Below are positions 2,234-21,992 of a stretch of DNA of 64,000 bases, piece after piece (within the stretch, counting starts at the first letter, position 1; each line of letters opens with the position of its first letter). The stretch is from Janthinobacterium sp. (GTDB taxonomy: Bacteria > Pseudomonadota > Gammaproteobacteria > Burkholderiales > Burkholderiaceae_D): contig NZ_RFSK01000022.1 of the NCBI RefSeq assembly GCF_009923995.1, positions 1 through 64,000 of the forward strand, written 5' to 3'. The notes under the pieces were generated by a model. That model did no database searches. It saw nothing but the letters and a program-made list of their open reading frames with translations, and was not told the origin of the DNA. A program made the position numbers and the translations under genes.

Positions 2234-2263
2234 GAAAAAGCCCGCTTTTTGCGGGCTTTTTGG
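2234..2263 (+). terminator. Rho-independent terminator after M13 peptidase
   Basis: aaaaagcccgctttttgcgggctttttgg stem-loop with T-run. Confidence 0.75.
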
Positions 2264-2608: not shown

Positions 2609-2638
2609 AGAAAGCCCGCTTCGGCGGGCTTTTTTCGT
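2609..2638. terminator. Terminator-like hairpin
   Basis: agaaagcccgcttcggcgggcttttttcg. Confidence 0.6.
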
Positions 2639-3285
2639 TAAACGAACGGCAATCCCGCTTGCTTAAGGATGCTCATGCTTCATAGACATACCGCGAATCG
2701 ATAGCGCCGATACTGACGGCAATTGATATCGCTCTGCCCGGCCATGCTGGCATTCCTGTAATTAAATTCGTAAAGTGATTGAAGACTGTCATTCATCCTA
2801 CCCGACAGTGTTACTTCACCGCTGCATTGCAGCCACTTCCTGCATTTCTCTATTTGCCGATGGCAAAGCGTTAAAAAATTCTTGATCATTTATTTCTCCG
2901 CAAAGTTTGATCTGGCGCAGCCGAAGATTCGATGGAGGGCGGGGATTGCTTGCAGCATGTATTGGGCCGCTATGGCCGGCTGGAAGCCGGCTTCCATTAT
3001 CCAGTGCTCCGCTTTCTGCTGCCGGGTTTACGCAAGCGGCTGGCTGAAAATTGGCCGCGCCGGAAAGTGTTCAGAAATTTCCCCGTAACTTCACGTGAAA
3101 TATCGGCTTGACCGCCCTTGATTGGATTTCATCCTTCAAGATATGATGACAAAAAAATTGATTTTAAGAAACTTACACAACTCACCGATATTTTGCTCCC
3201 GCACTTCAAAAGCTAAAGCGAAATATTTTTACAACCGAGCGCGAGACGCTCAATAAGAAACGCTTAATACAAAGGATTTTGAAGC

Positions 3286-4023: not shown

Positions 4024-5753
4024 TCAACGACGTCCATGAACCATTGGAGCAGTATTCTCTCCATTTCAAAAATGCTCACGCCAGCAATACGTCGGACTTT
4101 TTCGAAGACCTCGTGCGCCAGTCCGGCGTGGACGAGAACGCCAACATCGCGACGGTGCAGGAACTACGCGTGCTCGAAAAGCAGGCTGCGGGCGCCGGTT
4201 CCAGCAACAAATGGTGGCGTATCCTGCGCGGCGCCAGCATCGTGGCCGCGCTACTGGCGGCACTCTATCTCTACGCCTATTACGCATGGCCATGGCTCAT
4301 GGTCCCAGCGATTGCGCTTGCCATTGCGATTCATACGCTCAACCGCATCATCAACGATTCCGACGCACAGTTAAAGCGGCTGCAGGAAGCCTGCGACGCC
4401 AAACGTGCCGTGGCCTGGGGCCAGATGGTGCCGCTGAACCGCCTGTACGACTGGGACATCATGGCAAAGCTGATGCAGCAGACAGTACCTCGCATCGCAT
4501 TCGACCCGTATTTCAGCAACGGCCGCATGGAAGAGCTGCGCAAGAGCTTTGGCTGGTTTGGCAATCTGGGGGACGACCACTCGATCGTGTTCTCGCACAG
4601 CGGCGTACTGAACGGCAACCCGTTCATTCTTGCACGCACCTTGTCCCACTCGATGGGCAGCAAGAAATACGATAGCTCGCTGGCTATCAGCTGGACGGAA
4701 CAGTACCGCAATTCGCAAGGCAAACTGGAAACCAGAACCCGCCACGAAACCCTGCGGGCATCGATCGAGCGTCCAATGCCCGAATACGAGAACCAGACGT
4801 TTATCGTCTACGGCAACGAAGCGGCGCCGGATCTCGTGTTCAGCCGCCACCCGTCAAAACTCTCCAGCCTGGAGGACGGCTTCTTCGACAAATGGCGGAA
4901 GAATCGCGCCATCAAGAAGCTGGAAGAAAAGTCCCGCGATGTCGACGAGGGGCATACTTTTACGGTGATGGCCAACCGCGAATTCGACGCCTTGTTCGAT
5001 GCCACGGACCGCAACCATGAAGTACAGTTCCGGCTATTGTTCACGCCATTGGCGCAACAGGAAATGCTCAAGCTGCTCAAGGATAATCAAACAGGTTTTG
5101 GCGACACGTTCGTATTCGAAAAAACCCGCATGATCAACGTGCTGGAATCGGGACATATGCGCGCGACCGACATCAGCGGCGCCCCGGAGAAATTCTTTGC
5201 CTACGAACTCGCCCAGGCCCGCCTGTTTTTCAACGCCTATCACAACGATTTCTTCAAGTCATTCTACTTTGGGATCGCCCCGCTGCTTGCCATCCCACTG
5301 TACCAACAGCATCGTCCGCACTCGGACATCTATCAAGACACGTATTCGCACAAACCTTGTTTCTGGGAGCATGAAGCGATTGCCAATTACCACGGCGAGG
5401 CGACGTTCGAGCATCCCGAGTGCGTCACGCGAAGTATCCTGAAGACATCCATGCAGCAGCAAGCCGACGGATCGCAGAAAGTACATGTAACGGCCAGCGG
5501 CTTCCGCAGCGTCGCGCGCACCCAGTACGTCTCGGTGAGAGGCGGAGATGGCCGCTCCCATCAGGTTCCAGTGCATTGGGACGAGTACTTCGAGGTCGAA
5601 AATAGCGCCAACATGCTGGTAAAGGAAACGGCCTCGCCAGACAACACCGCCACGGATGATGCCGCGTTACCGCCGGCGTTTTCACAGCGTGGCATCGATG
5701 CCGAGAGAACCGTGCTTCGCCGGTCGATTGTTTCGGCGGTTTTGGCTGGTTAG
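4020..5753 (+). CDS. DUF3137 domain-containing membrane protein (probable TTG start overlapping the LemA stop)
   Basis: ORF open from 3897, but TTG at 4020 overlaps TGA 4021-4023; two TM helices near the N-terminus; LemA neighbour. Confidence 0.7.
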   Translation: MINDVHEPLEQYSLHFKNAHASNTSDFFEDLVRQSGVDENANIATVQELRVLEKQAAGAGSSNKWWRILRGASIVAALLAALYLYAYYAWPWLMVPAIALAIAIHTLNRIINDSDAQLKRLQEACDAKRAVAWGQMVPLNRLYDWDIMAKLMQQTVPRIAFDPYFSNGRMEELRKSFGWFGNLGDDHSIVFSHSGVLNGNPFILARTLSHSMGSKKYDSSLAISWTEQYRNSQGKLETRTRHETLRASIERPMPEYENQTFIVYGNEAAPDLVFSRHPSKLSSLEDGFFDKWRKNRAIKKLEEKSRDVDEGHTFTVMANREFDALFDATDRNHEVQFRLLFTPLAQQEMLKLLKDNQTGFGDTFVFEKTRMINVLESGHMRATDISGAPEKFFAYELAQARLFFNAYHNDFFKSFYFGIAPLLAIPLYQQHRPHSDIYQDTYSHKPCFWEHEAIANYHGEATFEHPECVTRSILKTSMQQQADGSQKVHVTASGFRSVARTQYVSVRGGDGRSHQVPVHWDEYFEVENSANMLVKETASPDNTATDDAALPPAFSQRGIDAERTVLRRSIVSAVLAG

Positions 5754-6014
5754 GGCGACTTTGCGGATTGCAGTGGCAAAAGTTGGCCGCTGCAGTATGA
5801 AATCACAAAGGACGCAGAGGACGCAGCAAAGGACGCAGGATCAGGTCTGCCATTTGGACACGAACTGATAGGCTAAGTGTTGTAGAAGCATGCTCAGTCG
5901 CAAAGCTGATCAGAACCACGAACGCACGGGGCTATCGTGCAGCGGCGGCAGTTGGTCGATTCGAAGCACACTGCCCTGCGCCTGAAGAACGAAGTGCGTC
6001 TCTCCGCGTATAGA

Positions 6015-6058
6015 CGAAAAAAGAAAAAGCTACCCTCGGGTAGCTTTTTCTTTTTTCG
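6015..6058. terminator. Perfect 21-bp inverted repeat, probable bidirectional terminator abutting the island att repeat
   Basis: cgaaaaaagaaaaagctaccc-tc-gggtagctttttcttttttcg. Confidence 0.7.
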
Positions 6059-6073
6059 AGAGGGGGATTCGAA
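6058..6073. repeat. Distal att direct repeat of genomic island
   Basis: gagagggggattcgaa, identical to 19601-19616 in the 3' end of tRNA-Ser. Confidence 0.75.
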
Positions 6074-6198
6074 TCATGCTCTAGAGTCGCATAATTCTGG
6101 GATTTCGATCAATTCCAGATTGGAGAATCCCCCAAAACATACCCCCTCGAACCAGCTTATGACTTCACGCCCCCTCAATTCAGGGAACATAGTTATAG

Positions 6199-7428
6199 CT
6201 ATGCGAGCTGAGGAAGCTGGCTGATAAACAAGTCGGACACTTTGCCGGCTGAGCTGATCAAGTTTGACAGCAACCTCCAGTTCTCGGTTTCCTTACGAAC
6301 TCTCCCAGCAACGATTGCGGGATGAATTTGAAGCTGTCGCGCTAACGCAATTGCGTCGTCCTGCGCATAACTTATCCGGACTTGAGCCGTTGCCCACACA
6401 GCCTCTGGGATCAATGCTTCGCTAGCTTCCCGATCCGCTTGCTGTTCTTCTTCGCTTGAACGGGTCTTGTCATCCAAATTATCTACAATAGAGGGACGCG
6501 CAGCGGACAAATGGCACTGCACGTGAATCAACTCATGCAACAATGCAAACCAGAAATTATCTAAGCGGTCGTGGCGTAGTGTTAATGCCACGATCGGCAT
6601 TTCACTGTCCAGCAGTGCCGCGCCGTCGAGATATGTCTTGTCGAAGTGCTTCTCAAAGACAAGCGCAATGCCAAAGTTGGACAAGTATTCTTGAGCAAGC
6701 AGCGGCCCCATTTCGAACGAAGACAATCGTACCAAATCACGTAGCCACTGCAATGTGATAGTTCCTGGCTGATATTGGCCTTTGAGCGTTCGCGTGCGAG
6801 CCTTGCGCAGAACACAAGCTTGCCAGACCATCAAAGAGTGTTCATCCATCATGCGTGCGCCGCTTTGGTGTAATGTAGCGCGTAATTTGATTTGTTGCCC
6901 AGCAAGACCGGACATCGCTCTGAAGAACCCAGTCACCAGCTCCTCTGCGTAGTCCTTTAGATGCTGTACGCTACGCCTAGCATCCCCGAATAGGCCACGT
7001 TCCTGCATTTCTGCTAAAGGAAACTTAGTGTAATCAATGTTTGGCTCAGCAAACAGGTCAAAGACCTCGCCAATCAGCACATCCGCAGGGATACCTAAGC
7101 CGACATGTAATTTACGGATCATCGATAGGCTCAGCGGCCTTTTACGACCAAGAACTTCTGAAACCTTGGAAATTGAGCCAATGTAGGGAACCAGATCCTT
7201 TTGCGCCAAGCGTTGTTGATCCATTCTGAATAGGATCGCGTCAATAGGATCAGGGAGGGACGGAGGGAAACGATTTTTCTCATACGACTGAATGACGAGT
7301 GCGAGCAGCTCCAACTCTGCATCTTCAGTAGAACCGAGCGTAGGATCTTTGTCCATAAGCTCAGACAGGCGAGCAACGGCAGCGGCGTAGTCACCTTCCG
7401 TTTTAAGTACTCGAATCTGTGTGTTCAT
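6199..7428 (-). CDS. HigA-type HTH antitoxin fused to ImmA/IrrE-like metallopeptidase domain
   Basis: 409 aa; N-terminal HigA-like HTH ('RLAQKDLVPYIGSISKVSEVLGRKRPLSLSMIRKLHVGLGIPADVLIGE'); C-terminal HExxH 'LLHELIHVQCHL'; directly downstream of higB-like gene. Confidence 0.8.
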   Translation of the reverse strand: MNTQIRVLKTEGDYAAAVARLSELMDKDPTLGSTEDAELELLALVIQSYEKNRFPPSLPDPIDAILFRMDQQRLAQKDLVPYIGSISKVSEVLGRKRPLSLSMIRKLHVGLGIPADVLIGEVFDLFAEPNIDYTKFPLAEMQERGLFGDARRSVQHLKDYAEELVTGFFRAMSGLAGQQIKLRATLHQSGARMMDEHSLMVWQACVLRKARTRTLKGQYQPGTITLQWLRDLVRLSSFEMGPLLAQEYLSNFGIALVFEKHFDKTYLDGAALLDSEMPIVALTLRHDRLDNFWFALLHELIHVQCHLSAARPSIVDNLDDKTRSSEEEQQADREASEALIPEAVWATAQVRISYAQDDAIALARQLQIHPAIVAGRVRKETENWRLLSNLISSAGKVSDLFISQLPQLA

Positions 7429-7460
7429 ACTGACCTCCTGACGCTAAAGTACATAGGTTT

Positions 7461-7757
7461 CTACTTGTTGAAATTCTTCTTGTTGTACTCGGCATGCGTA
7501 CCACCCCACTCGATCAAGACGAGACCGTTGCGGAAGCGAACTTTCACGACAAGCCGGTATGAATTACCTTTAATGTTGAAAATAATCCTGTTGTCAGCCA
7601 AGAAGCTGGCCGTTGAGAACCGATCTTTAACGTCCTGCGGCCCAGCCCATTGCCCGCGTTCAACCTCTGCACGCCAAGCATCCAGTGCGCCACGCGCATC
7701 AGCATGCGTATGCTTCAGTGCCTCAAGCACTTCCAAGTGAACTAGCTGCATAGGCAC
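7461..7757 (-). CDS. HigB-type mRNA interferase toxin
   Basis: 98 aa; 'FLADNRIIFNIKGNSYRLVVKVRFRNGLVLIEWGGTHAEYNK' typical of the HigB_toxin family. Confidence 0.85.
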   Translation of the reverse strand: MPMQLVHLEVLEALKHTHADARGALDAWRAEVERGQWAGPQDVKDRFSTASFLADNRIIFNIKGNSYRLVVKVRFRNGLVLIEWGGTHAEYNKKNFNK

Positions 7758-7766
7758 CGCCCTGAC

Positions 7767-7806
7767 TTCCCAAATTTATTCAAATTATACATTCCCAATT
7801 TGGGAT
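7767..7806. promoter_or_regulatory. Putative TA operator / divergent promoter region
   Basis: Palindrome tcccaa-t-ttggga (7793-7805) and a half-site ttcccaaatt (7767-7776) between higBA and the hsd operon. Confidence 0.5.
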
Positions 7807-7940
7807 ATGTCAAATGTCCCTGCACCATTTTGTCAAGTCCCCTCACAAGTTATTCGATTGCATCAAAATTTATGCAGCATCAACAATGCTGCGATAAATT
7901 GTTGGTGCAATGCTAGCACGCATACGCTAAAATATGCAAC

Positions 7941-8549
7941 ATGTTCAATGATGCGAAAAAACTTAATCTCAAAGATGTCGCCAGAATTCGTGGCGGCCAC
8001 CCCTTTCGCGGCTCAGTGCCAGTAATTGCAAATGCTCCTGTGGCTGTTGTGCAGATGAAAGACATCCTTCCATCGGGTCAGATCGACTGGTCGTCCACCG
8101 TTCGAACTGAGCTTGTAGGACGCAAAGAACCTGACTGGCTCAAGCCTGGAGACATACTATTCATCTCAAGAGGTAATCGATACCACGCTGCCTGTGTGGA
8201 CCAACCTCCGCCCCTTGCTGTGTGCGGTGCTCACTTATTTCATCTCACTGTACGAGACCCTGACATCGTTCTCCCAGCCTTCCTAGCTTGGCAGATTGGA
8301 CAGCCTCCTGTTCAGCGGCAACTTCAGCAGGCCGCCTCAGGCTCACACCAGCTCAGCGTCGCGAGGCCCGCTTTGGAGGCATTAGAGATCGCAGTGCCCT
8401 CTTTGAAGACCCAGCGACTTCTCGTTGATCTCGCGGACATGGCTCAACGTGAGAAAGCCTTACTCACAGCCATGATCCGTAATCGCGAACAAGAACTCGA
8501 AGCCTTGGCACATGCAATTGCCGAAGGCATTCCCCTGAATTTTTCCTGA
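7941..8549 (+). CDS. Half-size type I restriction specificity (HsdS-like, single TRD) protein
   Basis: 202 aa; 'WLKPGDILFISRGNRYHAAC' and 'SGSHQLSVARPALEALEIAVPSLKTQRLLVDLADMAQREKALL' resemble a single TRD plus spacer helix; upstream of hsdM. Confidence 0.75.
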   Translation: MFNDAKKLNLKDVARIRGGHPFRGSVPVIANAPVAVVQMKDILPSGQIDWSSTVRTELVGRKEPDWLKPGDILFISRGNRYHAACVDQPPPLAVCGAHLFHLTVRDPDIVLPAFLAWQIGQPPVQRQLQQAASGSHQLSVARPALEALEIAVPSLKTQRLLVDLADMAQREKALLTAMIRNREQELEALAHAIAEGIPLNFS

Positions 8550-8556
8550 GTAACCT

Positions 8557-10071
8557 ATGACCGAAACAACTTCCGTTAGCCAGGACACCATCAACGCGGC
8601 AGTCTGGAACGCTTGCGACACATTCCGTGGCACAGTTGACCCTAGCATTTACAAGGACTATGTCCTAACCATGCTTTTCCTGAAGTACATGTCTGATGTC
8701 TGGCAGGACCACTACGACGACTACAAGAAGCAATTTGGTGACAACGACGAGCTAATTATCGAAATGCTCAAGAACGAGCGGTTTGTTCTACCACCACGCG
8801 CAAACTTCTATGTGCTGTACGACAAGCGATTCGAACCGGGCAATGGCGAACGTATCGACACAGCACTACATGCCATCGAAGACGCCAACATCAGCAAATT
8901 ACGAGATGTCTTTCAAGACATCACTTTCAACTCCAACAAGCTAGGCGATGAGCAGCAAAAAAACGACATCCTACGGCACCTAATGGAAGACTTTGCCAAG
9001 GAGGAGTTAAATCTCGGCCCCCACCGCGTCGGAACTCTCGACGTGATTGGAAATGCATACGAGTATCTGATCAAGAACTTCGCATCTACGAGCGGCAAAA
9101 AGGCTGGCGAGTTCTACACACCACCCGAGGTGTCCACACTCATGGCTCGTTTAATGGACCCGCAAGAGGGAGAAGAGATATGCGACCCCACCTGTGGCTC
9201 TGGCTCATTGCTGATGAAGTGCGGCCGCTTGATCCGCCAGCGCACTGGTTCTCGTAAATACGCCTTGTACGGCCAAGAGGCCATTGGCAGTACTTGGGCG
9301 TTGGCCAAGATGAATATGTTCCTACATGGCGAGGACAATCACCGGGTGGAATGGGGTGACACCCTGCGCAACCCCAAACTACTCGACAGTGAGAGCACAC
9401 TCAAGCATTTCGACATCGTAGTCGCTAACCCTCCATTCAGTCTGGAAAAGTGGGGCCATGAGAATGCCGAAGCCGATAAATTCGGACGCTTCCGGCGGGG
9501 GGTGCCGCCTCGCACCAAAGGTGACTACGCCTTCATCTTGCACATGGTTGAGACTATGAAGCCGGGCACCGGCCGCATGGCGGTAGTGGTGCCGCATGGC
9601 GTACTGTTCCGTGGAGCCGCCGAAGGCAAAATCCGCCAGAAACTGATCGAGGAAAACTTGCTGGACATGGTGATTGGCTTGCCTGAAAAGCTATTCTATG
9701 GCACTGGCATCCCAGCCGTTATTTTAGTGTTCCGCAAGCGCAAGCGCGACGAGAAGGTCTTGTTTATAGATGCAAGCCGCGACTTCGAAGATGGCAAAAA
9801 CCAGAACATGCTGCGCGAGGACGATTTACGGCGCATTTTGAGCACTAGCCAGAATCGTCACGATGTTAATAAGTACGCCCACTTGGCGACCTTGGCTGAA
9901 ATCACTGAAAACGACTTCAATCTTAACATCGCGCGGTATGTTGACACATTTGAGGAAGAAGTCGAGATCGACCTGATGGCTGTACGTCGCGAACGTGCTC
10001 AACTCAAATTGGAGCTAGCCATGCTGGAAGAAAAGATGACGACCTATTTGAAGGAGCTGGGCTATGAGTGA
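8557..10071 (+). CDS. hsdM: Type I restriction-modification system DNA methyltransferase subunit M
   Basis: 504 aa; 'GEFYTPPEVSTLMARL', 'DPTCGSGSLL', 'FDIVVANPPFS' (NPPF). Confidence 0.96.
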   Translation: MTETTSVSQDTINAAVWNACDTFRGTVDPSIYKDYVLTMLFLKYMSDVWQDHYDDYKKQFGDNDELIIEMLKNERFVLPPRANFYVLYDKRFEPGNGERIDTALHAIEDANISKLRDVFQDITFNSNKLGDEQQKNDILRHLMEDFAKEELNLGPHRVGTLDVIGNAYEYLIKNFASTSGKKAGEFYTPPEVSTLMARLMDPQEGEEICDPTCGSGSLLMKCGRLIRQRTGSRKYALYGQEAIGSTWALAKMNMFLHGEDNHRVEWGDTLRNPKLLDSESTLKHFDIVVANPPFSLEKWGHENAEADKFGRFRRGVPPRTKGDYAFILHMVETMKPGTGRMAVVVPHGVLFRGAAEGKIRQKLIEENLLDMVIGLPEKLFYGTGIPAVILVFRKRKRDEKVLFIDASRDFEDGKNQNMLREDDLRRILSTSQNRHDVNKYAHLATLAEITENDFNLNIARYVDTFEEEVEIDLMAVRRERAQLKLELAMLEEKMTTYLKELGYE

Positions 10072-10174
10072 GTTTGACCTTATATAGGACGAACTGGGAC
10101 TTCACTCTACCAAAGACGGCAGTACGCAGTATCGCTCGCTGGCAGTGCGCAGCATAATCTCAGACCAAAGCCGT
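10064..10174 (+). pseudogene. Short interrupted ORF overlapping the hsdM stop (MSEFDLI*DELGLHSTKDGSTQYRSLAVRSIISDQSR*)
   Basis: ATG at 10064 overlaps the hsdM stop; TAG after 7 codons, then open in the same frame to TAA. Confidence 0.4.
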
Positions 10175-10237
10175 TAAGCGAAGCTAAAGATATGAAGATA
10201 CTAAAAAAATTGAGTATCTATTGAAAAAGAAAAATTA

Positions 10238-11491
10238 ATGTCAATCCAGTCACTACCTAAGAGCTGGCAAATCAGCACTGTTGCCAGTCTCTGTAAAATG
10301 CAGAATGGACACAGCTTTGGCCCCAATGATTGGGATGTTACGGGCCTTCCAATTATTCGCATTCAAAACTTAAATGGAGGGAAGGAATTTGACTACTTTT
10401 CTGGAATACCTGACCCCCGATGGATTGTGGAACCAGGCCAATTGTTGTTTTCTTGGGCTGGTACAAAAGGCGTTTCGTTTGGCCCATTCATTTGGCGCGG
10501 ACCAAGAGGGGTATTAAATCAACACATTTTCAAAGTTTTGGCGAGTGAGAATATCAGTAAAGAATGGCTCTATTGGGCACTAAAGGATGTCACAAGTCGA
10601 ATTGAAGCGCAGGCGCATGGATTTAAAGCTACATTGGTTCATGTAAAAAAATCTGACATTGAACGACAACAGCTCCTTGTTCCTACCGGCGCAGAACAAC
10701 GTTATATCGCTCAGGCTCTATCTACATGGGAGCAAGCCATTGCTATAAGTGAAGTCATGCTTAGCAATAGCAAAAAACAGCGTCAAATGATCGTTCATCT
10801 GCTTACTAGTGGAAAACTTCAGTTGGCTGATTTCCAAAATTCAGCTGAAAAATTCAAAACGGCGCACGGTTCAATCCCTTCAAACTGGAGCTACCCGAAC
10901 ATTGGAGAAATAGCTGTCGAGGTCAGCCAAAAGCTGCGAGATGGAGAGCCTCTCCCTGTACTTTCGTGTACGAAATATACGGGCCTCGTGGACTCGCTGA
11001 GCTATTTCAAAAAGCAAGTATTCAGCAAAGATATTTCCACGTACAAAGTTGTTTCGCGTGACTGTTTCGTCTACGCAACCAATCACATAGAAGAGGGATC
11101 AATTGGATATCAGGACCTGTATGAGAAAGCCATCGTCAGTCCCATGTACACTGTCTTTAAAACGCATGGAGAAATTGATGATGGGTATTTATACCAACTC
11201 CTGAAGACAGAGAAATACCGCCAGATATTTTCTGCAGCGACCAATGCTTCAGTGGATAGGAGAGGCAGCTTGCGCTGGAAGGAATTCAAGAAAATTCATG
11301 TCCCGTTACCCCCTTTAGCAGAACAGCGTGCGGCTATATCAGTGTTTGACACATTTTACTCTGAAGTAACAAATCTAGAAAAACAGTTGGTTACTTTAAA
11401 AGCAGAGAAAAATGCACTTATGACGATACTGCTAACAGGTAAGCGGCGCCTTACTCGAAATAGCCTACCTCATGTAGAGGCATCTACATGA
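10238..11491 (+). CDS. hsdS: Type I restriction-modification system specificity subunit S
   Basis: 417 aa; two TRD modules with 'PTGAEQRYIAQALSTWEQAI' and 'LPPLAEQRAAISVFDTF' conserved regions. Confidence 0.93.
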   Translation: MSIQSLPKSWQISTVASLCKMQNGHSFGPNDWDVTGLPIIRIQNLNGGKEFDYFSGIPDPRWIVEPGQLLFSWAGTKGVSFGPFIWRGPRGVLNQHIFKVLASENISKEWLYWALKDVTSRIEAQAHGFKATLVHVKKSDIERQQLLVPTGAEQRYIAQALSTWEQAIAISEVMLSNSKKQRQMIVHLLTSGKLQLADFQNSAEKFKTAHGSIPSNWSYPNIGEIAVEVSQKLRDGEPLPVLSCTKYTGLVDSLSYFKKQVFSKDISTYKVVSRDCFVYATNHIEEGSIGYQDLYEKAIVSPMYTVFKTHGEIDDGYLYQLLKTEKYRQIFSAATNASVDRRGSLRWKEFKKIHVPLPPLAEQRAAISVFDTFYSEVTNLEKQLVTLKAEKNALMTILLTGKRRLTRNSLPHVEAST

Positions 11492-14400
11492 GCAACACCC
11501 CGCAAACCCGCGAGCAATACAGCGCCCACATTCCGGCCCTGCACCTGATGTGCAATCTCGGCTGGAACTACCTAAGTTCCGCGTCAGCCCTCGCGCTTCG
11601 CGGTAACACACGTGAAGTTTTACTCAAGCCGCGTTTGATCGAAATACTTAAAACCCGCCGCTTTGATTACAAAGGAGAAACATTTCCCCTCTCACCCGGC
11701 GGTATCGATCAGATTGTGCGTGAGATTTCCAATATTAACCTCGCCGAAGGCCTCCTTCTTGCGAACGAGCAGCTCTACAATAAGCTCACCTTGGGCATTA
11801 CCATCACGGAGTTCATGCCCGATGGCAAAAAGCATCAGCCCACGGTGGCCATTCTTGACTGGCTCAATCCCATAGCCAATTTATGGGATGTTACTGAGGA
11901 ATTGGAGGTGCTATCCGTCCAGGGCACGCATACACGCAGACCTGATGTGGTGGCCTACGTTAACGGTATCCCTCTGGTAATAATCGAAGCTAAGCGCCCT
12001 GAATCCGTACGTGCCGACAAAGCAATGGTGGCTGAGGGCATTAGCCAGCACCTACGCAATCAGCGGTCAGATGAAATCCCCAATCTTTTCTCATATGGAC
12101 AACTTTTATTATCTATCAGCCAGCTAGATGGCCGCTATGGCACCACGCACACCGCTGCCAAATTCTGGGCGAGGTGGCGCGAAGAGCAGTTTGATGACGC
12201 GCACTTCAGCACACTTAAAAACAAACCACTTTCCGGAGAAACCCACGCCGCTCTGTTTGAAGGCAAACCAGCGTATGTGCGCGCATACTTTGAATCGCTG
12301 TGGTCCCAGCCCACGCTACCAACCGATCAGGACAGACTGCTGGTGAGCTTGCTCACGCCAGAGCGCTTATTGGATGTCTTGCGCGGCTATATGCTATTTG
12401 ACCGCAAGGTGGGCAAGGTGGTAGCCCGTTACCAACAGTACTTTGGTATCCGCGCCCTGCTTGCTCGCCTGAACACGTTCAAGCCAGACGGTAGCCGTGA
12501 AGGTGGTGTGGTGTGGCACACCACAGGCTCTGGCAAGAGCTTCACAATGGTGCTGTTGACCAAGGCATTGTTGTTGAACGAAGGATTACGGGATTGCCGC
12601 GTGGTGGTGGTGACTGACCGCATTGATCTAGAGTCGCAACTGGCTAAGAACTTCATGTCTGGCGGCGCGTTTGGCTCTGCCGTTGGCACAAAGAAGGAGG
12701 GCGAACGTAGCAAGGTGTTGTCAGGCCGCGAGCTGGCCAAACGCATTGGTCATAGCAATGATCGAATAATTTTCACATTGGTCCATAAGTTCAATACTGC
12801 GGCCAAGCTGCCTGACTGCCGCAATGACTCGCACAATCTTATCGTGCTGGTGGACGAAGGCCACCGCAGTCATGGCGGCGAAACCCATGAACGAATGAAG
12901 CAGGCCCTGCCTAAGGCCGCCTATGTGGCCTTCACCGGCACGCCATTGCTCAAGAACGAGAAGACGTCCAACAAGTTTGGCCCCATCGTGCATGCATACA
13001 CAATGCAACGCGCCGTGGAGGACGAAACGGTGGCACCACTTTTGTATGAGGAGCGAGTGCCGGAACTCACGATCAATGAAGGAGCTGTGAACCGTTGGTT
13101 TGACAAGATCACTGCTGGTCTTGCTGACGCTCAGCGAACCGACCTCAAGCAAAAGTTTGCTAAGAAGGGAGCCATCTACGGTGCGAGCAACCGCATCGAG
13201 TTGATAGCCTGGGATATTGCTGCCCACTTTAACGAAAACATCAAAAAACTGGGTATGGGGCTCAAAGGCCAAGTGGCCACTGAACGCAAGCTTGATGCCA
13301 TTCGCTATAAGAAAGCGCTAGATGAAACAGGCCTGGTGACTAGCATGGTAATAATTTCGCCGCCAGACACCCGCGAGGGTAACGACGAAGTTGATGAGGA
13401 CCAGTTGCCCGAGGTGCAAAAATGGTGGAAGCAGAACATCACTGAAAAGGGCTTGGATGCTGAAAGCTATGAGCGCCATGCGCTGCAAGACTTTGGAAGT
13501 GATGGAAGCCCTGATTTGTTGATCGTGGTGGATCGTTTGCTGACGGGCTTTGACGAGCCACGCAATACCGTCCTCTACATCGACAAGCCGTTGAAGGGTC
13601 ACAGCCTTATTCAAGCCGTCGCACGAGTGAACCGCCTGCATGATGCGAAGCGCTATGGTGTGCTGGTGGACTACCGGGGCATTTTGAAGGAGTTGGACAC
13701 AGCTGTGCGTGCCTATCAGGATCTTGAGGCGAAGACTCAAGTTGGATTTGATTTGGCCGACTTAGATGGCCTGTACAAGCAGTTCAGTACCGAGTACAAA
13801 CGGCTGCCTGGTTTTCACGACAAACTGTGGTCCTTTTTTAGGGCCGTAGCCAATCGCAAAGACACCGAGCAGTATCGCCAAGTACTTACACCGAAGTACA
13901 CAACCGATGCCGATGGCGAAGAATACGACGAACGGCAGAAACTGCGAGAAGACTTTTATGCAGCCTTGACCGAGTTCGGTTTGTGTCTGCAAACAGCACT
14001 GTCATCGCGCAGCTTCTTTGAGGACCATAGCTTCTCTGAGGAGCAGATCACACGGTACAAAGAAGACCTAAGGTTTTTCACTGAACTGCGTAAAACTGCC
14101 AGGCGCGATGCCATGGAGACGGTCGATTATAGCGTCTACGAAGAGCAGATCCGCAAGCTCGTGGACAAGCAAGTTATCGGCACTGAGGTGCGTGAGCCAG
14201 ACGGTGTATACCTTGTCCACGAATTGGGTAAACCCGAGGATCCGAAGGACTGGACTGAGGAGAAAACGCGCAACGAGACGGACATAATTCGTACTCGATT
14301 GCGCAAGACTATCGAGCAGGATCTGGCAGAGGATCCCTATGCGCAAAAAGTATTCGCAGACTTGTTGAAGCAAGCCATCGCCGATGCTGAGGCCATGTTT

Positions 14401-14760
14401 GATCATCCGCTCAAACAGTACGCATTGTTCAAAGATTTTGAACAGACCTTGCAGGCGCGCGCCACACCGGGCGTTCCTGATGCGTTTGGCGACAACGGGC
14501 ATGCCAAGGCCTACTTTGGCGCAACCAAGTTGGTGCTTGGCGATGGCGCCGATCAACACGTGGCTTTGGCCTTCGAGATGGACCAAGTGGTACGTAATGC
14601 TGTGGCAGAAAACTCCTTAAACCCGCAAAATATTGAAGCAGCTATCCGAAAGGGATTGTTGCCAAAGCTGTTTACAGTCATGGGCCTGGACAACGCCAAG
14701 TTAGTGATTGAGCAGGTAATTCACATCACACGGGTAGGTTTGAGTCGCCATGCAGGGTAG
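11488..14760 (+). CDS. hsdR: Type I restriction endonuclease subunit R
   Basis: 1090 aa; N-terminal nuclease 'PLVIIEAKRP', Walker A 'WHTTGSGKSFTM', 'LIVLVDEGHRS', 'FTGTPL'. Confidence 0.96.
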   Translation: MSNTPQTREQYSAHIPALHLMCNLGWNYLSSASALALRGNTREVLLKPRLIEILKTRRFDYKGETFPLSPGGIDQIVREISNINLAEGLLLANEQLYNKLTLGITITEFMPDGKKHQPTVAILDWLNPIANLWDVTEELEVLSVQGTHTRRPDVVAYVNGIPLVIIEAKRPESVRADKAMVAEGISQHLRNQRSDEIPNLFSYGQLLLSISQLDGRYGTTHTAAKFWARWREEQFDDAHFSTLKNKPLSGETHAALFEGKPAYVRAYFESLWSQPTLPTDQDRLLVSLLTPERLLDVLRGYMLFDRKVGKVVARYQQYFGIRALLARLNTFKPDGSREGGVVWHTTGSGKSFTMVLLTKALLLNEGLRDCRVVVVTDRIDLESQLAKNFMSGGAFGSAVGTKKEGERSKVLSGRELAKRIGHSNDRIIFTLVHKFNTAAKLPDCRNDSHNLIVLVDEGHRSHGGETHERMKQALPKAAYVAFTGTPLLKNEKTSNKFGPIVHAYTMQRAVEDETVAPLLYEERVPELTINEGAVNRWFDKITAGLADAQRTDLKQKFAKKGAIYGASNRIELIAWDIAAHFNENIKKLGMGLKGQVATERKLDAIRYKKALDETGLVTSMVIISPPDTREGNDEVDEDQLPEVQKWWKQNITEKGLDAESYERHALQDFGSDGSPDLLIVVDRLLTGFDEPRNTVLYIDKPLKGHSLIQAVARVNRLHDAKRYGVLVDYRGILKELDTAVRAYQDLEAKTQVGFDLADLDGLYKQFSTEYKRLPGFHDKLWSFFRAVANRKDTEQYRQVLTPKYTTDADGEEYDERQKLREDFYAALTEFGLCLQTALSSRSFFEDHSFSEEQITRYKEDLRFFTELRKTARRDAMETVDYSVYEEQIRKLVDKQVIGTEVREPDGVYLVHELGKPEDPKDWTEEKTRNETDIIRTRLRKTIEQDLAEDPYAQKVFADLLKQAIADAEAMFDHPLKQYALFKDFEQTLQARATPGVPDAFGDNGHAKAYFGATKLVLGDGADQHVALAFEMDQVVRNAVAENSLNPQNIEAAIRKGLLPKLFTVMGLDNAKLVIEQVIHITRVGLSRHAG

Positions 14761-15478
14761 CATCCACTACGGAGAACATGTCTTACCTTACGAGGTTCGT
14801 ATCCAGCCGGGACGGTCATCGCAGCGAGTAGCAATTCACGTTGAGCCAGATGGGCGTATCTTCGTCGATGCACCTGAGACAGCGTCAGAGAAAGAAATCA
14901 ATCAAGCCGTCAAGGTGAGAGCACGATGGATCTTTGGGCACGTTGCTGCGGCCAAGGAGCGATTACGCCATGTACTCCCACGCGAGTACGTCAGTGGTGA
15001 ATCCCTGATGTATTTAGGACGTCGATATCGGCTGAAGGTTACGCTGGCAGTAGATTCCTTAGTAACGGCTCGCATGCGCGGTGCATTCATTGAAGTATTG
15101 GTACCGGAGTCTGACCCAAACTTGGTGCGCTTAGGACTCAGGTCCTGGTTTCGGCAAAGAGCTCGAGTCGTACTGACTGAGCGAGTACAGTTAATGGCAG
15201 CATCACTCCGATGGGTTTCGGGCACTCCACCTCTGCGGTTGTTGACAATGCGCAGCCAATGGGGAAGTTGCTCGCCTGCCGGGCGATTAACTCTCAATCC
15301 TCAACTGGTCAAGGCGCCAAGAGAATGCATTGACTACGTCGTACTACATGAGCTATGTCATTTAAAGGAGCACAACCATACTCAGCGGTTTTACTCACTG
15401 CTAGAAAAGCAGATGCCTGGCTATCAGGCCATCAAACTACGGCTAGATGCCATAGCGGACTCACTCCTAAATGAGTAA
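14750..15478 (+). CDS. YgjP/DUF45 (WLM-like) metallopeptidase, overlapping hsdR
   Basis: 242 aa; 'RSQWGSCSPAGRLTLNPQLVKAPRECIDYVVLHELCHLKEHNH' HExxH. Confidence 0.88.
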   Translation: MQGSIHYGEHVLPYEVRIQPGRSSQRVAIHVEPDGRIFVDAPETASEKEINQAVKVRARWIFGHVAAAKERLRHVLPREYVSGESLMYLGRRYRLKVTLAVDSLVTARMRGAFIEVLVPESDPNLVRLGLRSWFRQRARVVLTERVQLMAASLRWVSGTPPLRLLTMRSQWGSCSPAGRLTLNPQLVKAPRECIDYVVLHELCHLKEHNHTQRFYSLLEKQMPGYQAIKLRLDAIADSLLNE

Positions 15479-15710
15479 GCTGACTAACCTTTCAGTCGCT
15501 AGGGCAACCTCACCTAACTTCCCCCTCAGGATGGTGGGCAAGAATTGATCTTGGCCTGTGATGCCGGCCTGTGCGAGTTGACACAGGCAGCGCTAGCAAT
15601 TGAAAGCTGATCCGCGACCAGTACTAATGGCTATTAGCAAATCTTTCCTAGAAGTACCTGTCATCGCAGCCTCCGGTGGCACCTATGCGCGTTGCTGATC
15701 CAGCAGTCGT

Positions 15711-15923
15711 TCATTCTCTCGTGTAGGAGACGCTTCGGCTAGCATCTATGCAGCGCTGCTGCCATTGAGCGATTTCCTCTGCGTCCCAGGCGACGGACTT
15801 GGGGCCAATGGGAATCGGCGCTGGCAACACGCCTGCCTTCACCTTGCGCCAGATTGTGGCGCGGGACCAGCCGGTGGCCTCGATTACCGCAGGCAAGCGG
15901 AGGAATTTTTTAGTCGTGGTCAT
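15711..15923 (-). CDS. AlpA family phage-type transcriptional regulator / excisionase-like
   Basis: 'FLRLPAVIEATGWSRATIWRKVKAGVLPAPIPIGPKSVAWDAEEIAQWQQ'; ATG at 15923 with GGAG upstream. Confidence 0.85.
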   Translation of the reverse strand: MTTTKKFLRLPAVIEATGWSRATIWRKVKAGVLPAPIPIGPKSVAWDAEEIAQWQQRCIDASRSVSYTRE

Positions 15924-15957
15924 AAGATTCTCCTTCGATTGATGAACACCAAGTAAT

Positions 15958-15978
15958 GGAGAGTCATGCCGACTCTCC
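15958..15978. promoter_or_regulatory. 8-bp stem hairpin upstream of alpA-like gene
   Basis: ggagagtc-atgcc-gactctcc. Confidence 0.45.
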
Positions 15979-16059
15979 GCGATCATTCCGGCAGCGCCAG
16001 GGCTGCACCCTTTACATATCTTCCGCCCCATGCGCTGCGGCCCTGATACAAGTGGGCGG

Positions 16060-16926
16060 TCATCTGCCCAGGTAGATAGACGTGACCTGTTCACGACCAT
16101 GCCCCATCTCCGTCGAAATCTTCAGCCGCGCAGCGTTATCCGCCAATTTTTGCGACGCATCCAGCTGTTTGGAAGTCGCGCCGCCACAAGCTGGACTAGT
16201 TCGGCCAGTCAACTCGGCATAGCGCCGCTGCGCGTACTCATGGCGCAGCCCATGCACACCATGAACGCCAGCCTTGTCGCACTGCGCACGAAAGCGGTTC
16301 AACTGGTCCCGATACCGCAACTGCGCCGGAATCAGGCTGCCTTTTCCCGCCAGCGCCTTGGCCGCATCCAGCACCGCGCGCTGCTGCGTGGTGGTAATCG
16401 GCACCTCCCGATATTTGCCGCCCTTGGTCCAGCTATCCTGCAACCGCAGGATGTTCCCGCCATCGGCCCATCCCGGCTTGATCTTGATGCTTTCCTCGCG
16501 TCGCAAACCAAACGCCGCCTGCAGCTGCAGGGACATGCGCGTATACGGATCATTCACGCGGGCCAGCGTGTCGGCGTCCAGCACCTTCGCCTTCGAAACA
16601 TTGGTGACAAACACCCGCTCCGCGATGCCATATTCGCCGTTGGTGCGCGCAATAATGTTTTCCTTGCCGATCTTCTCGGCCCACCATCGTAGGGCGCTCA
16701 TGCGATTCTTGATCGTGCCGGTACTGACGCCATCCTGCTTCCACTTGTCTAGCAGCGCCGCCACATGTTTCGGTTTCAGGCTGTCCACACTCATATGCTG
16801 GAAGCCCCGTTCGGCCAGGTCGTTGGCGCACAGGGTTAATAGGCGCTCGCGGTCGGCCTGCGTCGCAAAGCTGCCATCCCGGTTGCGGTGACACAGTTGC
16901 TTGAGCTGGTAGTTCAAGTCGCGCAT
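16060..16926 (-). CDS. Second tyrosine recombinase (phage integrase N-terminal/SAM-like domain type)
   Basis: 'MRDLNYQLKQLCHRNRDGSFATQADRERLL...'; catalytic pattern 'FGLRREES', 'HGLRHEYAQRRY', 'MGHGREQVTSIYLGR'; start approximate. Confidence 0.82.
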   Translation of the reverse strand: MRDLNYQLKQLCHRNRDGSFATQADRERLLTLCANDLAERGFQHMSVDSLKPKHVAALLDKWKQDGVSTGTIKNRMSALRWWAEKIGKENIIARTNGEYGIAERVFVTNVSKAKVLDADTLARVNDPYTRMSLQLQAAFGLRREESIKIKPGWADGGNILRLQDSWTKGGKYREVPITTTQQRAVLDAAKALAGKGSLIPAQLRYRDQLNRFRAQCDKAGVHGVHGLRHEYAQRRYAELTGRTSPACGGATSKQLDASQKLADNAARLKISTEMGHGREQVTSIYLGR

Positions 16927-17011
16927 GGCAAAGTCATCCTTTCGATCATTGGTTTTCACATCGATGCCGCGTGGTGTAATCCTGTCTGGTAAGTGTTTCT
17001 GGCCACCCTCA

Positions 17012-17815
17012 CTGCCTCGGCAGAAAAGGTTGAATCAAGGGCCTCGGGACACCACTCCCGTGTATGCGGTTGCTGTTACTGCCTGCCCGCGCCGCATGCG
17101 CGTGTGGCACCGCTGCGCGCTCCCGGAGGAAGCTGCCGCAGCGGGGACCAATCACCCAGGGTCCATGGAGTGCACATCGTGCACGGATCAACTTCAACTA
17201 ATCAGCCCGTAGCGGGCAAAGGACATCGCAGGGCTTGCCTGCGATGCGGGGCGCCTGGCCCCGTCACTGAACACCATCACGCGGTGGAATTCCGCTTGCC
17301 GCCGGGGCCTATGCCGTCGGCGGCGCGTCGTCACTGGCAGCAAGCCGCCAGTAACGACGCGCGCACGTAGCCATGGCATGTGACGGCATACACGCCAGCA
17401 TCGCACTCGCGGTGACGATACTGGCGACTCTGAAGCACATGCGCTGGCGGCAGCCGCGATGGCATCGCATCGCTGGCATTTCTGCTGACGGTGCGGCTTG
17501 CGGCAAAGCCATGCTGTGCTTCATACGGTGCGCTACCTCGCGGGGCATGCGAACCAATCGGGGCAGGAGTCTTGCTCCTGTTTGAGGAAGCGTCCATCGG
17601 GCGCAATCATCCAAGCAATCCGACTTGCGGATTGTGGGATATGAAGACGCTGAAGGCAGCGCTTTATCGTGCCGAGATGTGCATGCTTCTGCATGGCCCG
17701 GCGATATATCTAGCAGAAACTGCTAAGTATCATGGTGGCGGGTGACGACCGCAACGCCTATGCCGCTAAGCATAGGGACATGCTCGATGCATGCCCTCGT
17801 GGGAGCGATTCCCAC
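17012..17815. other. Dense array of ~20 short hairpins, apparently non-coding, between the two recombinase modules
   Basis: Consecutive perfect or near-perfect inverted repeats, e.g. 17224-17246 catcgcagg-gcttg-cctgcgatg, 17247-17263 cggggc-gcctg-gccccg, 17323-17362, 17564-17580 caggag-tcttg-ctcctg, 17616-17634 caatccg-acttg-cggattg, 17757-17776, 17799-17815. Confidence 0.65.
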
Positions 17816-17826
17816 ATAAGAGAGCT

Positions 17827-18048
17827 TCATTCTATGCCTGATATCGACGTTTGCAAGTGGTTCGTTTCGTCAAGTGCGCTTTTCGTAGTACGCAGAATTG
17901 GGACCGGCGCGGACTGGGCTGCTGCTACTGGATTGACCGGCAGCGTTGCAGCCCGGACAAAGGCTCCGATAGCTAGTTTATGTAATTTTTCCTTGGAAGC
18001 GGTCTGCTTGATAAGCGCATCCGTGAGGCGCAGTACATACTCAGACAT
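17827..18048 (-). CDS. Small protein resembling the arm-type DNA-binding N-terminus of the adjacent P4-type integrase
   Basis: 73 aa from ATG 18048; SD aggaggg 4 nt upstream; overlaps integrase 3' end by 8 nt; 'LTDALIKQTASKEKLHKL' vs integrase 'LTDARIRNAKPREKLYKL'. Confidence 0.6.
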   Translation of the reverse strand: MSEYVLRLTDALIKQTASKEKLHKLAIGAFVRAATLPVNPVAAAQSAPVPILRTTKSALDETNHLQTSISGIE

Positions 18049-19351
18049 GGTGCCCTCCTGTTCCGCCATCCCGGCTGAACTCACCGCTGACCAGCGTTAA
18101 TCTGGGCGTCTGCGGCGGCTCTCCCTTGCCGCTGACGGCATCGATGTAGTCGGCCCAATCCTGCATCATCTTGCGCCGTTCCGCCAGGAACTGCGCCCGG
18201 TCATAGGCACTGGCCACCTTGTCCTTCGGTGCATGTGCCAGTTGCCGGTCCACGACTTCATGCCGGTAGCCAAGGCGCTCCTTGATGGTGCTCATGGCCA
18301 GCGCCCGGAAGCCATGGCCGGTCATCTTGCCCTTGTATCCCATGCGTCCAAGCGCCACCAGTATCGTGTTATTGCTGATCGGCTTTTCGTGGTCGCGCTG
18401 ATTCGGGAACAGGTACTTGCTGCGGCCCGTGATCGCGTGCAGTTCGCGCAGCAGCTCCAGCGCCTGGCGCGACAGGCAGACGTGATGATTGGTCATATCC
18501 GGATTGACGGTCAGCTTGCCGCGCTTCATGCGCTGCCATGGAATGATCCACTCGCCGCGCTCCAGGTCGATTTCACTCCAGGGCGTTTCGATCAGCTCGC
18601 TAGTGCGCACAAAGCACAGCAGCATCAGCCGCAGCGCAATGCGGGTCGGCGCGAACATGCGCGCTTCGTTGCGGTCCAGAATGGCCAGAAACTGCGGTAG
18701 TTCGTCGGCGTTGATAGCGGCGAAGTGTCTGGCGCGGACGGTCTTCAACACATCCTTCATATCGGTGACCAGATTACTCTCTGTGAATCCGCATTGAATC
18801 GCGTAGCTGAAAATTGACGCACATACCGCTTTCTGGCGATGGGCGATTTCGCTTGCGCCGCGCTCCTCGATCTTGCGCAGTGCAGCGATTACATCGAGGT
18901 GCTTGAGTTCATCGATGGGCCTGCGGCCAATGGCCGGGAAGATATCTGCCTCCAGCCGTTGCAGGACGTTCTTGGCGGTGCGCTCGCTCCAGGTCGGCAC
19001 CTTGTTGGCGTGCCACTCGCGGGCAATCTTTTCAAATGTGTTGGCGGCGCGCTCCTTCAATCGCCGCTTGGCGTCATCGCGGTGCTTGCCGGGATCGATC
19101 CCTTGCAGAATCAGGCGGCGGGTCTCCAGGCGCTTTTCGCGAGCATGCTGCAGCGTGATTTCCGGATATGGGCCGAAGGTCAGCAGGTTGTCCTTGCCGT
19201 TGGCCTGTCGGAACTTGAAGCGCCAGATGCGCGAACCGCTTGGCGTCACCTCGATGTACAAGCCGTCGCCATCAAACAGTTTGTACAACTTCTCGCGTGG
19301 CTTGGCGTTCCTGATACGAGCGTCAGTCAGCGGAGCAATGATCTTGGGCAT
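18041..19351 (-). CDS. P4-type tyrosine site-specific integrase (DUF4102 arm-binding domain)
   Basis: 'LTDARIRNAKPREKLYKLFDGDGLYIEVTPSGSRIWRFKFR'; 'ALRLMLLCFVRTSELIETPWSEID', 'GHGFRALAMSTIKERLGYRHEVVDRQLAHA'; adjacent to tRNA-Ser. Confidence 0.95.
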   Translation of the reverse strand: MPKIIAPLTDARIRNAKPREKLYKLFDGDGLYIEVTPSGSRIWRFKFRQANGKDNLLTFGPYPEITLQHAREKRLETRRLILQGIDPGKHRDDAKRRLKERAANTFEKIAREWHANKVPTWSERTAKNVLQRLEADIFPAIGRRPIDELKHLDVIAALRKIEERGASEIAHRQKAVCASIFSYAIQCGFTESNLVTDMKDVLKTVRARHFAAINADELPQFLAILDRNEARMFAPTRIALRLMLLCFVRTSELIETPWSEIDLERGEWIIPWQRMKRGKLTVNPDMTNHHVCLSRQALELLRELHAITGRSKYLFPNQRDHEKPISNNTILVALGRMGYKGKMTGHGFRALAMSTIKERLGYRHEVVDRQLAHAPKDKVASAYDRAQFLAERRKMMQDWADYIDAVSGKGEPPQTPRLTLVSGEFSRDGGTGGHHV

Positions 19352-19516
19352 GATGCACCTCCACGTCAACGTGTTGAAAGAACACTATAGACAAGATGGT
19401 GCAAATTAAAAGAGTAGACGATCAAGGGTATGCCGCCGATCCCGCATCACCTACCCTAAAAAAAGCGCGATGCATTGAAATGGGCTGACACGACCTGAGA
19501 CGCCGAAAAACGAAAA

Positions 19517-19553
19517 AACCGCTTAGAATCAAGGCTCTAAGCGGTTTTTGAGG
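19517..19553. terminator. Terminator hairpin between integrase and tRNA-Ser
   Basis: aaaaccgcttagaatcaaggctctaagcggttttt. Confidence 0.65.
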
Positions 19554-19593
19554 GACTTCCTGAGACGTCCTGATCTTACTTAATTACTATCCG

Positions 19594-19684
19594 TGGCGGA
19601 GAGAGGGGGATTCGAACCCCCGATAGGCTATGAACCTATACACGCTTTCCAGGCGTGCGACTTCAACCACTCATCCACCTCTCC
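19594..19684 (-). tRNA. tRNA-Ser (GGA), CCA encoded
   Basis: Reverse complement GGAGAGGTGGATGAGTGGTTGAAGTCGCACGCCTGGAAAGCGTG...GGGGGTTCGAATCCCCCTCTCTCCGCCA. Confidence 0.93.
19601..19616. repeat. Proximal att direct repeat in tRNA-Ser 3' end
   Basis: gagagggggattcgaa, identical to 6058-6073. Confidence 0.75.
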
Positions 19685-19985
19685 TGCAGGCAATGCGTCT
19701 ACTTGCACACACTGCGTACTATTTCTCGCTTGTCGCGAAGCCGCAGATTATAGCAAAGATTCTACGGACTGCCAAAGTTATTTACCGTGGGGTAAAAGTT
19801 GTGCCTGACATAAGCCGATCAGGACCGGAGTCGGCCCCTGAAGGGCTGGACGCCCGCTCCGCCCCCGGACGTCGATTCGGGCATCGACTCCCCAGGCAGC
19901 ATCGGGATGCCGGGTACGCCCAAGCCAGCCGCTGCCGGAATCCCCCCCCCCCCCCGCACAGGCCGATCCCGCAGGGACGGGCCTT

Positions 19986-21992
19986 CTACGACGCTTCCTT
20001 CAGCTGCTCCAGGATGGCCGGGTTTTCCAGGGTCGAGACGTCCTGCGTAATCGTCTCGCCCTTGGCCAGCACGCGCAGCAGGCGGCGCATGATTTTGCCG
20101 GAGCGGGTTTTCGGCAGGTTGTCGCCGAAGCGGATTTCCTTCGGCTTGGCGATCGGGCCGATTTCCTTGCCGACCCAGTTGCGCAGCTCCAGGGCCAGCT
20201 TCTTCGCTTCCTCGCCGGTCGGGCGGGCCTGCTTGAGCACGACGAAGGCGCAGATGGATTCGCCCGTCGTGTCGTCCGGACGGCCGACGACCGCCGCTTC
20301 GGCCACCAGCGGGTTGGCCACCAGGGCCGATTCGATCTCCATCGTGCCCATGCGGTGGCCCGACACGTTCAGCACGTCATCGATGCGGCCCGTGATGGTG
20401 AAGTAGCCCGTGTCCTTGTTGCGGATGGCGCCGTCGCCTGCCAGGTACATCTTGCCGCCCAGCTCTTCCGGGAAATAGCTGGACTTGAAGCGGTCCGGGT
20501 TGTTCCAGATCGTGCGGATCATCGATGGCCATGGACGTTTCACCACCAAAATACCGCCCTGGCCGTTCGGCACGTCGTGGCCCGCTTCATCGACGATGGC
20601 GGCCATGATGCCTGGCAATGGCAGGGTGCAGGAACCGGGCACCATCGGCGTCGCGCCCGGCAGCGGCGTAATCATGTGGCCGCCCGTTTCCGTTTGCCAG
20701 AAGGTATCGACGATCGGGCATTTCTCGCCGCCGATGTTCTTGTAGTACCACATCCATGCTTCCGGATTGATCGGCTCGCCAACCGAACCCAGCAGACGCA
20801 GGCTGGAGAGGTCGTAGTTGCTTGGATGCACTTTCGGGTCCACGTCGGCCGCCTTGATCAGCGAACGGATGGCCGTCGGTGCCGTGTAGAAGATGCTGAC
20901 CTTGTGTTTCTTGATGGTTTCCCAGAAACGGCCCGCGTTCGGGTAGGTCGGGATACCTTCGAACACCACTTGCGTGGCGCCCACGGCCATCGGGCCATAC
21001 GCGATGTAGCTGTGGCCCGTCACCCAGCCGATGTCGGCCGTGCACCAGAAGACGTCGTCCGGCTTGATGTCGAAGCTCCATTTCATCGTCAGCGCGGCCC
21101 ACAGCAGGTAGCCGCCGCTCGAGTGCTGCACGCCCTTCGGCGTGCCGGTGGAACCCGAGGTGTACAAGATGAACAGTGGATGCTCGGCATCGACCCATTC
21201 CGGCTCGCATTGCGCGCTCTGGCCTTCGACGAGGTCGTGCAGCCACGTGTCGCGGCCGGCCACCATCGGCAGGTCGCTGCCCGTGCGCTTATAAACAACG
21301 ACGTTTTTCACGCAATCGCAGCCACCCAGCGCCAGCGCTTCGTCGACGATGGCTTTCAGGGGCAGCTTCTTGCCGCCGCGCAATTGCTCGTCGCCAGTGA
21401 TGACGGCCACGGCGCCCGCGTCGATGATGCGTTCCTGCAGGGATTTGGCCGAGAAGCCGCCGAAGACGACGGAGTGCGTGGCGCCGATGCGGGCGCAGGC
21501 TTGCATTGCAGCAACGCCTTCGACGGACATCGACATATAGATGATGACGCGGTCGCCCTTGCCTATCCCCTTGGATTTCAGGCCGTTGGCAAACTTGCAC
21601 ACTTTTTCGTGCAGCTCTTTATAGCTTGCCTTGGTGACGGTGCCGTCGTCCGCCTCGAAGATGATGGCCGTCTTGTCGCCCAGGCCATTTTCGATGTTGC
21701 GGTCCAGGCAGTTGTACGACACGTTCAGCAAGCCGTCCTCGAACCATTTGTAGAACGGCGCGTTGTCTTCGTTCAGGGTGCGGGTGAACGGCTTTTTCCA
21801 GCTCAGGTTCTCGCGCGCCAGCCTGGCCCAGAATCCTTCGTAGTCGGTTTCCGCCTCTTTCACCATGGCGTGATACGCCGCCATGCCGGAAATGGTGGCC
21901 TGCGCGGCAAATGCCGCCGACGGCTCGAATACGCGCGACTCTTCCGGTCCCTGCTGCTGCGTGCCCTGTCCTTGGTTCTCTGTAGCGGTCAT
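19986..21992 (-). CDS. acs: Acetate--CoA ligase
   Basis: 668 aa; '[20 protein letters not shown]', '[14 protein letters not shown]'-like region, C-terminal '[13 protein letters not shown]'. Confidence 0.96.

Follow-up and report, generated by a model that had tools for sequence, protein, structure and literature searches.

The hairpin-rich array at 17012–17815 of the window (the whole stretch of 64,000 nucleotides that was analysed) is probably a candidate oriT together with an sgm-like structured RNA, both serving a relaxase of the tyrosine recombinase type, with gene and array forming a mobilization module of the SGI1 type. The array lies directly upstream of the recombinase-type gene. The first-pass annotation placed it between two island recombinases; it is better described as upstream of a candidate recombinase-type relaxase, with the separate P4-type integrase of the island beyond. 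The parts concerned are as follows.

16060–16926, minus strand: tyrosine recombinase-type protein of 288 amino acids from an ATG at 16926, candidate MpsA-like relaxase (PF12834 and PF12835, Phage_int_SAM_2/Integrase_1)
16991–17190, minus strand weakly suggested (that of the relaxase gene): module A, candidate sgm-like RNA with nine conserved helices, from covariation and RNAalifold
17252–17381, unstranded: module B, candidate oriT with a palindrome near-invariant in 41 sequences, also present upstream of distant plasmid homologues
17382–17826, unstranded: distal hairpin-rich part, conserved in the genus, lineage-specific, with low family-wide conservation
17829–17856, minus strand: promoter-like site TTGCAA-16-TAGAAT from a consensus scan (0.6 expected by chance), so oriented that a transcript would run through the array to the relaxase gene

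The density of hairpins noticed in the first-pass annotation, which counted about 20 with unrelated stems, is genuine. In 17012–17815 there are 10 perfect stems of 6 bp or more that do not overlap and have loops of 3–8 nt, against 1.63 ± 1.26 (largest value, 6) in 500 dinucleotide shuffles, and the remaining 804-nt stretches of the 64 kb contain a median of 2 and a maximum of 7. With stems of at least 5 bp, the count is 17 against 5.35 ± 2.0 in dinucleotide shuffles. The minimum free energy of 16960–17830 beats all shuffles on both strands, with −416.7 against −370.5 ± 8.1 on the plus strand (z = −5.7, 20 shuffles) and −403 against −357.2 ± 9.7 on the minus strand (z = −4.7, 20 shuffles). The stems differ from each other and form no repeated unit, and no direct-repeat family of at least 18 nt was found in positions 1–20000 of the window, in agreement with the view that the array is neither a CRISPR nor a simple repeat array. 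The absence of a convincing gene also holds, as the longest open reading frame tested (16993–17370) has no Pfam match. A coding reading was rejected, since no family match is found and the stem changes in homologues are compensatory, which argues against coding.

The array matches no Rfam family. The Rfam matches in the whole window are two tRNAs only, and the array region is negative at both gathering and relaxed thresholds (best E-value in the relaxed search, 0.25). GOLLD and ROOL, with which the array had been compared, are likewise long multi-helix RNAs of mobile elements, and its length, number of helices and mobile-island setting speak for a stand-alone large ornate RNA of this kind, unrelated to conjugation. 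Such an RNA is nevertheless barely credible, since the array has no covariance-model match to GOLLD, ROOL or any other Rfam family and is strictly linked to one recombinase family and an oriT-like palindrome; the earlier comparison is unsupported.

The limits of the array should be noted. The conserved structured unit begins at about 16991, just outside the start first assigned to the array (17012), and conservation across the family extends over the first ~390 nt, i.e., modules A and B. Where the window has the distal part, other lineages have module C, with the hairpin pair GGGCGATGC..GCATC / GGGCTGA..TCAGCC. In some relatives module B lies beyond module C instead of before it, indicating that the modules are separable.

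Array and gene are conserved together. Of 39 other genomes of the genus, 12 contain array DNA at 94–98% identity, and in each the recombinase gene accompanies it. About 500 relatives of the protein occur in genomes taken one per species; the protein is present in 45 of the 272 sampled genera of the class and recurs across Beta- and Gammaproteobacteria. A ladder of motifs recurs upstream of the gene, in which AGTGTTTCTG is followed by GGGACACCACTCCC about 55 nt on, then by ACCCAGGGTCC and a GTCACT-rich block. Among the 71 copies with at least 900 nt upstream, module A is present in 69 and both modules occur together in 64; the 624 controls taken from the same loci gave 11 calls for module A and 12 for module B. 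More distant copies, at identities of at least 57%, carry both modules in all cases (10/10). When used as a nucleotide query against plasmids and phages, the array gave no match, and the plasmid relatives discussed below were found through the protein search. No literature on such an array in betaproteobacteria was found.

Across relatives, ~20 to ~970 nt separate the array from the start codon. In two loci (L155 and L165), ~860–890 nt of extra DNA separate the recombinase start codon from AGTGTTTCTG. The array might serve in cis as a regulatory leader on the recombinase mRNA, acting like a riboswitch or in autoregulation, with no role in transfer, given that it stands just upstream of the start codon and that the promoter-like site points through it towards the gene. 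The variable distance does not suit a leader, the invariant palindrome and the half-sites look like protein sites, and the expression of mpsAB in SGI1 is independent of sgm-sRNA (PMC9299015). We regard a leader as very unlikely.

The following helices of module A are seen in the window.

17045–17060: hairpin CGGGA-caccac-TCCCG
17065–17069/17092–17096: helix TGCGG/CCGCA
17110–17117/17138–17145: helix CCGCTGCG/CGCAGCGG
17145–17149/17160–17164: helix GGACC/GGTCC
17170–17184: helix GTGCAC/GTGCAC

Compensatory changes across homologues are clearly found in module A. A first global alignment gave a poor consensus fold, and a later alignment was used instead. In 44 sequences, 84.6% of the cells of the nine-helix structure are paired, a percentage flattered by drawing the structure from one of the 44 sequences, which does not flatter the double changes. 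Both sides have changed in 30 of the 45 pairs (one example is C-G 20 times, A-U 12 times and G-C 12 times). The covariation score is 0.322; column shuffles give 0.154, with none of the 500 as high, and sliding the partners by 1–3 columns gives 0.07–0.10. RNAalifold, unaided, recovers five of the nine helices. Two loops, CACCAC and TTGACCCA, are near-fixed. Wobble pairs number 38 on the relaxase strand against 21 on the other (40 against 26 in a second count omitting two poorly aligned helices), and this asymmetry leans weakly towards the relaxase strand as that of the putative RNA. Module A is not recognisable upstream of the gammaproteobacterial plasmid homologues. This observation and the weakness of the wobble bias count against the mobilization-module reading.

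Alternatively, the whole array may be an extended oriT acting as DNA only, whose hairpins work in single-stranded form, for relaxase binding, for termination or as single-strand promoters in the recipient, with no functional RNA. The two strands are equally strongly structured, both have few wobble pairs in nearly balanced numbers, and the oriT stem-loops of SGI1-related islands at dusA and yicC are kept as DNA despite sequence divergence (PMC8409611). However, module A is a long stretch with many helices whose loops hardly vary, and the equivalent place in SGI1 encodes an essential RNA, sgm-sRNA, with oriT outside its core (PMC9299015). The DNA-only explanation is possible, though rather unlikely. 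The two proposals of the first-pass annotation, a large structured noncoding RNA and a folded DNA substrate, both point in the right direction and may each hold for different parts of the array. The interpretation withstands tests proposed with it, in that folding is better than in shuffles, stems covary across homologues and Rfam has no matching family.

Module B contains the following sites.

17263 and 17276: direct half-sites GTCAC(T) and ATCAC, 13 nt apart, preceding the palindrome
17323–17362: palindrome, in the window form GCGTCGTCACT..AGTAACGACGC

The palindrome, GTCGTCACT..AGTgACGAC, is near-invariant, and its centre is variable in length (7 nt in L118, 14 in the window, ~18 in others, 11 in pSIO1 and ~80 in Pleionea). 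A GTCACT..AGTGAC palindrome is kept upstream of homologues down to ~25% protein identity, and in the sampled relatives the palindrome stands only beside the recombinase gene family, except for one unrelated chromosomal site. The crossover core of a recombinase needs a fixed spacer of 6–8 bp. The centre of the palindrome is too variable for an ordinary crossover site, which was therefore rejected for module B; it looks like a binding and hairpin site. An integron with an attC array was also rejected, as there is one palindrome per gene copy and no cassette array. The Salmonella plasmid pSGI4 (L202, 4986–5888), an SGI4-type element with F-type mating-pair genes that is typed as non-mobilizable, has a distant homologue (25% identity) with the GTCACT..AGTGAC palindrome upstream and no recognisable module A. 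This protein is possibly the unrecognised relaxase of pSGI4.

The columns R143, H225, R228, H229 and Y285 are invariant in the family of the 16060–16926 protein. Its predicted structure (pLDDT 91) matches tyrosine recombinases, with IntI4 (2a3v) at the top and lambda Int, XerH and Cre scoring alike, and a sequence search of solved structures gave no match. IS110 bridge-RNA recombinases are DEDD-type enzymes with a guide RNA; a system of this kind was rejected because the window protein is a tyrosine recombinase. On small plasmids (pSIO1, A. baumannii and Pleionea), a type IV coupling protein comes after the recombinase-type gene, mostly past one small open reading frame, and 134 of the 210 plasmids carrying the gene are typed as non-mobilizable, i.e., have no recognised relaxase. 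Both observations count for the mobilization-module reading. Against it count the betaproteobacterial loci, where no coupling protein was found near the gene and no recurrent small partner like MpsB was identified; in the window, the gene is followed by that of an AlpA-type regulator. In three tandem pairs (G238:C13:746433-748074, G378:C1:1897417-1898956 and G226:C44:9436-11066), a weak partial homologue stands directly before the full recombinase-type gene, and it could be an MpsB-like partner.

The protein may instead be a conventional site-specific recombinase, with the array as its recombination site (attP, or a resolution site with accessory arms). Pfam, the fold and the full set of catalytic residues all say tyrosine recombinase, and the inverted and direct half-sites resemble core and arm sites. 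This reading is unlikely, since the palindrome centre varies from 7 to ~80 nt, each locus has one site, the island ends at tRNA-Ser belong to the P4-type integrase, and coupling proteins are neighbours on plasmids.

Recombinase gene and array are located on a 13.5-kb integrative (mobilizable) element inserted at tRNA-Ser, with the following features.

6058–6075, unstranded: second att repeat at the other end of the island, 17/18 identical to the 3′ end of the tRNA
6199–7428, minus strand: cargo gene with a strong PADLOC match to PD-Lambda-2_B (E = 7e-155)
7941–8549, plus strand: HsdS-like gene, the first of the type I restriction-modification cargo block (7941–14760)
8557–10071, plus strand: HsdM of this block
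10238–11491, plus strand: HsdS of this block
11488–14760, plus strand: HsdR of this block
15711–15923, minus strand: AlpA-type regulator (PF05930)
18041–19369, minus strand: P4-type integrase of the island (PF13356, PF22022 and PF00589), adjoining tRNA-Ser
19594–19684, minus strand: tRNA-Ser(GGA), the insertion target, with the att copy at 19601–19618

The integrase stands beside the tRNA, att repeats occur at both ends and the cargo is variable. The repeat of the tRNA 3′ end at 6058–6075 marks the other end and thus gives the length of 13.5 kb; comparable att repeats are found in 4 of 12 sister islands within the stretch fetched. The segment 15736–19800 is 87–95% identical in twelve other genomes of the genus, while everything to the left of it changes, so that the recombinase, the array and the integrase constitute the core of the island. 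The presence on the island of a P4-type integrase and att repeats of its own counts for the mobilization-module reading. In three sister islands (L074, L075 and L077), a deletion from 16544 to 18135 removes half of the recombinase gene and the array, and another integrase and AlpA stand in their place. This natural loss of the module counts against the mobilization-module reading. An unassigned open reading frame of 85 residues (17827–18084, minus strand) separates the P4-type integrase from the array and corresponds in place to S022 of SGI1; several sister islands have ~520 bp extra near it. A run of ~14 C at 19942–19955, intergenic and just outside the island, is a possible assembly or slippage site.

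From the mobilization-module reading we infer nicking, transfer and transcription, as well as the strand and role of the RNA, in the following way. The gene after the array would encode a tyrosine-recombinase-type relaxase like MpsA, MobK and TcpM, not the integrase of the island, which would be inserted and excised by the P4-type enzyme. The relaxase candidate would bind the GTCACT half-sites and the palindrome of module B, the putative oriT, and cut one strand there with Y285. The nicked strand would then be exported by the type IV secretion system that a conjugative helper element in the same cell provides. The stretch separating the relaxase gene from the putative oriT, module A, would specify a conserved RNA with many hairpins. 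Its strand is probably that of the relaxase gene (minus in the window), and the promoter-like site at 17856–17829 (minus strand) would allow such a transcript. Like sgm-sRNA in SGI1, the RNA may be required for transfer, and the simplest role would be that of a relaxosome component or relaxosome chaperone. The constant place of the array beside the recombinase gene, the covariation in module A and the near-invariant palindrome count for the mobilization-module reading, as do the promoter-like site facing through the array and the separability of module A from module B.

A further proposal is tentative: this widespread protein family, annotated as integrases, may possibly consist of RNA-dependent relaxases, each of which would work only as a ribonucleoprotein with the nine-helix RNA encoded beside oriT. 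If so, relaxosomes of this class would generally contain a structured RNA. Many islands and small plasmids are classed as non-mobilizable since no relaxase is seen. If gene and array are a mobilization module, mobilizable elements of a large and so far hidden class could be recognised by sequence, from module A and the GTCACT..AGTGAC palindrome. The helices conserved here and their fixed loops also point to bases to be mutated, with compensatory swaps, for the role of sgm-sRNA in SGI1 conjugation. What may surprise specialists is that a kind of RNA region so far described only for SGI1-type islands has a covarying fold in many genera and accompanies genes that annotation treats as ordinary integrases.

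Three tyrosine-recombinase-like relaxases are known, TcpM, MobK and MpsA (PMC8152469). MobK of pIGRK, once annotated Int, has an inverted-repeat oriT directly upstream of its gene, as is proposed for the window protein, whereas MobK is smaller (catalytic Y179), its minimal oriT is AT-rich and 186 bp long, and no RNA is reported (PMC8152469). TcpM of pCW3, as far as it is described where cited in PMC8152469, is also a tyrosine-recombinase-like relaxase, but acts on a 151-bp oriT of a conjugative clostridial plasmid, with no structured RNA reported there. A Shewanella plasmid with mcr-4.3 carries, next to that gene, an Integrase_1/Phage_int_SAM_2 protein that was interpreted as a phage integrase, with no array or oriT described (PMC9769806). 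This protein belongs to the same family as the window protein and was found again in the plasmid search (H56).

The closest likeness is to SGI1, where the noncoding stretch upstream of mpsA has, going away from the gene, a ~280 bp core encoding the essential sgm-sRNA and then a 125-bp oriT with three inverted repeats, with a small open reading frame beyond (PMC6414798, PMC9299015). In the window, too, a tyrosine-recombinase-type protein has a candidate RNA core beside its gene, an oriT-like site with inverted repeats beyond and then a small open reading frame, in the same order and on the same scale, on an integrative element with a separate integrase. The tie rests on anatomy, not on alignment, and these parts, their order and their scale count for the mobilization-module reading. 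The noncoding region upstream of the gene has inverted repeats conserved in structure, and module A is separable from module B as the sgm core is from oriT. The catalytic residues of MpsA (R162, H247, R250, H251 and Y319) and those of the window protein share the HxxRH motif. Three E. coli trmE-flank loci examined for SGI1 carried other insertions there. The window protein has 288 residues against 321 in MpsA, no MpsB was found, and the window element has AlpA, a P4-type integrase at tRNA-Ser and another host range. To call the array an undescribed system, as was done at first, is too strong, since the mpsA/sgm-sRNA/oriT module of SGI1 has the same anatomy (PMC6414798, PMC9299015). In contrast to SGI1, the RNA region of the window family has a covarying fold across many genera, and this breadth and conserved fold appear to be new.
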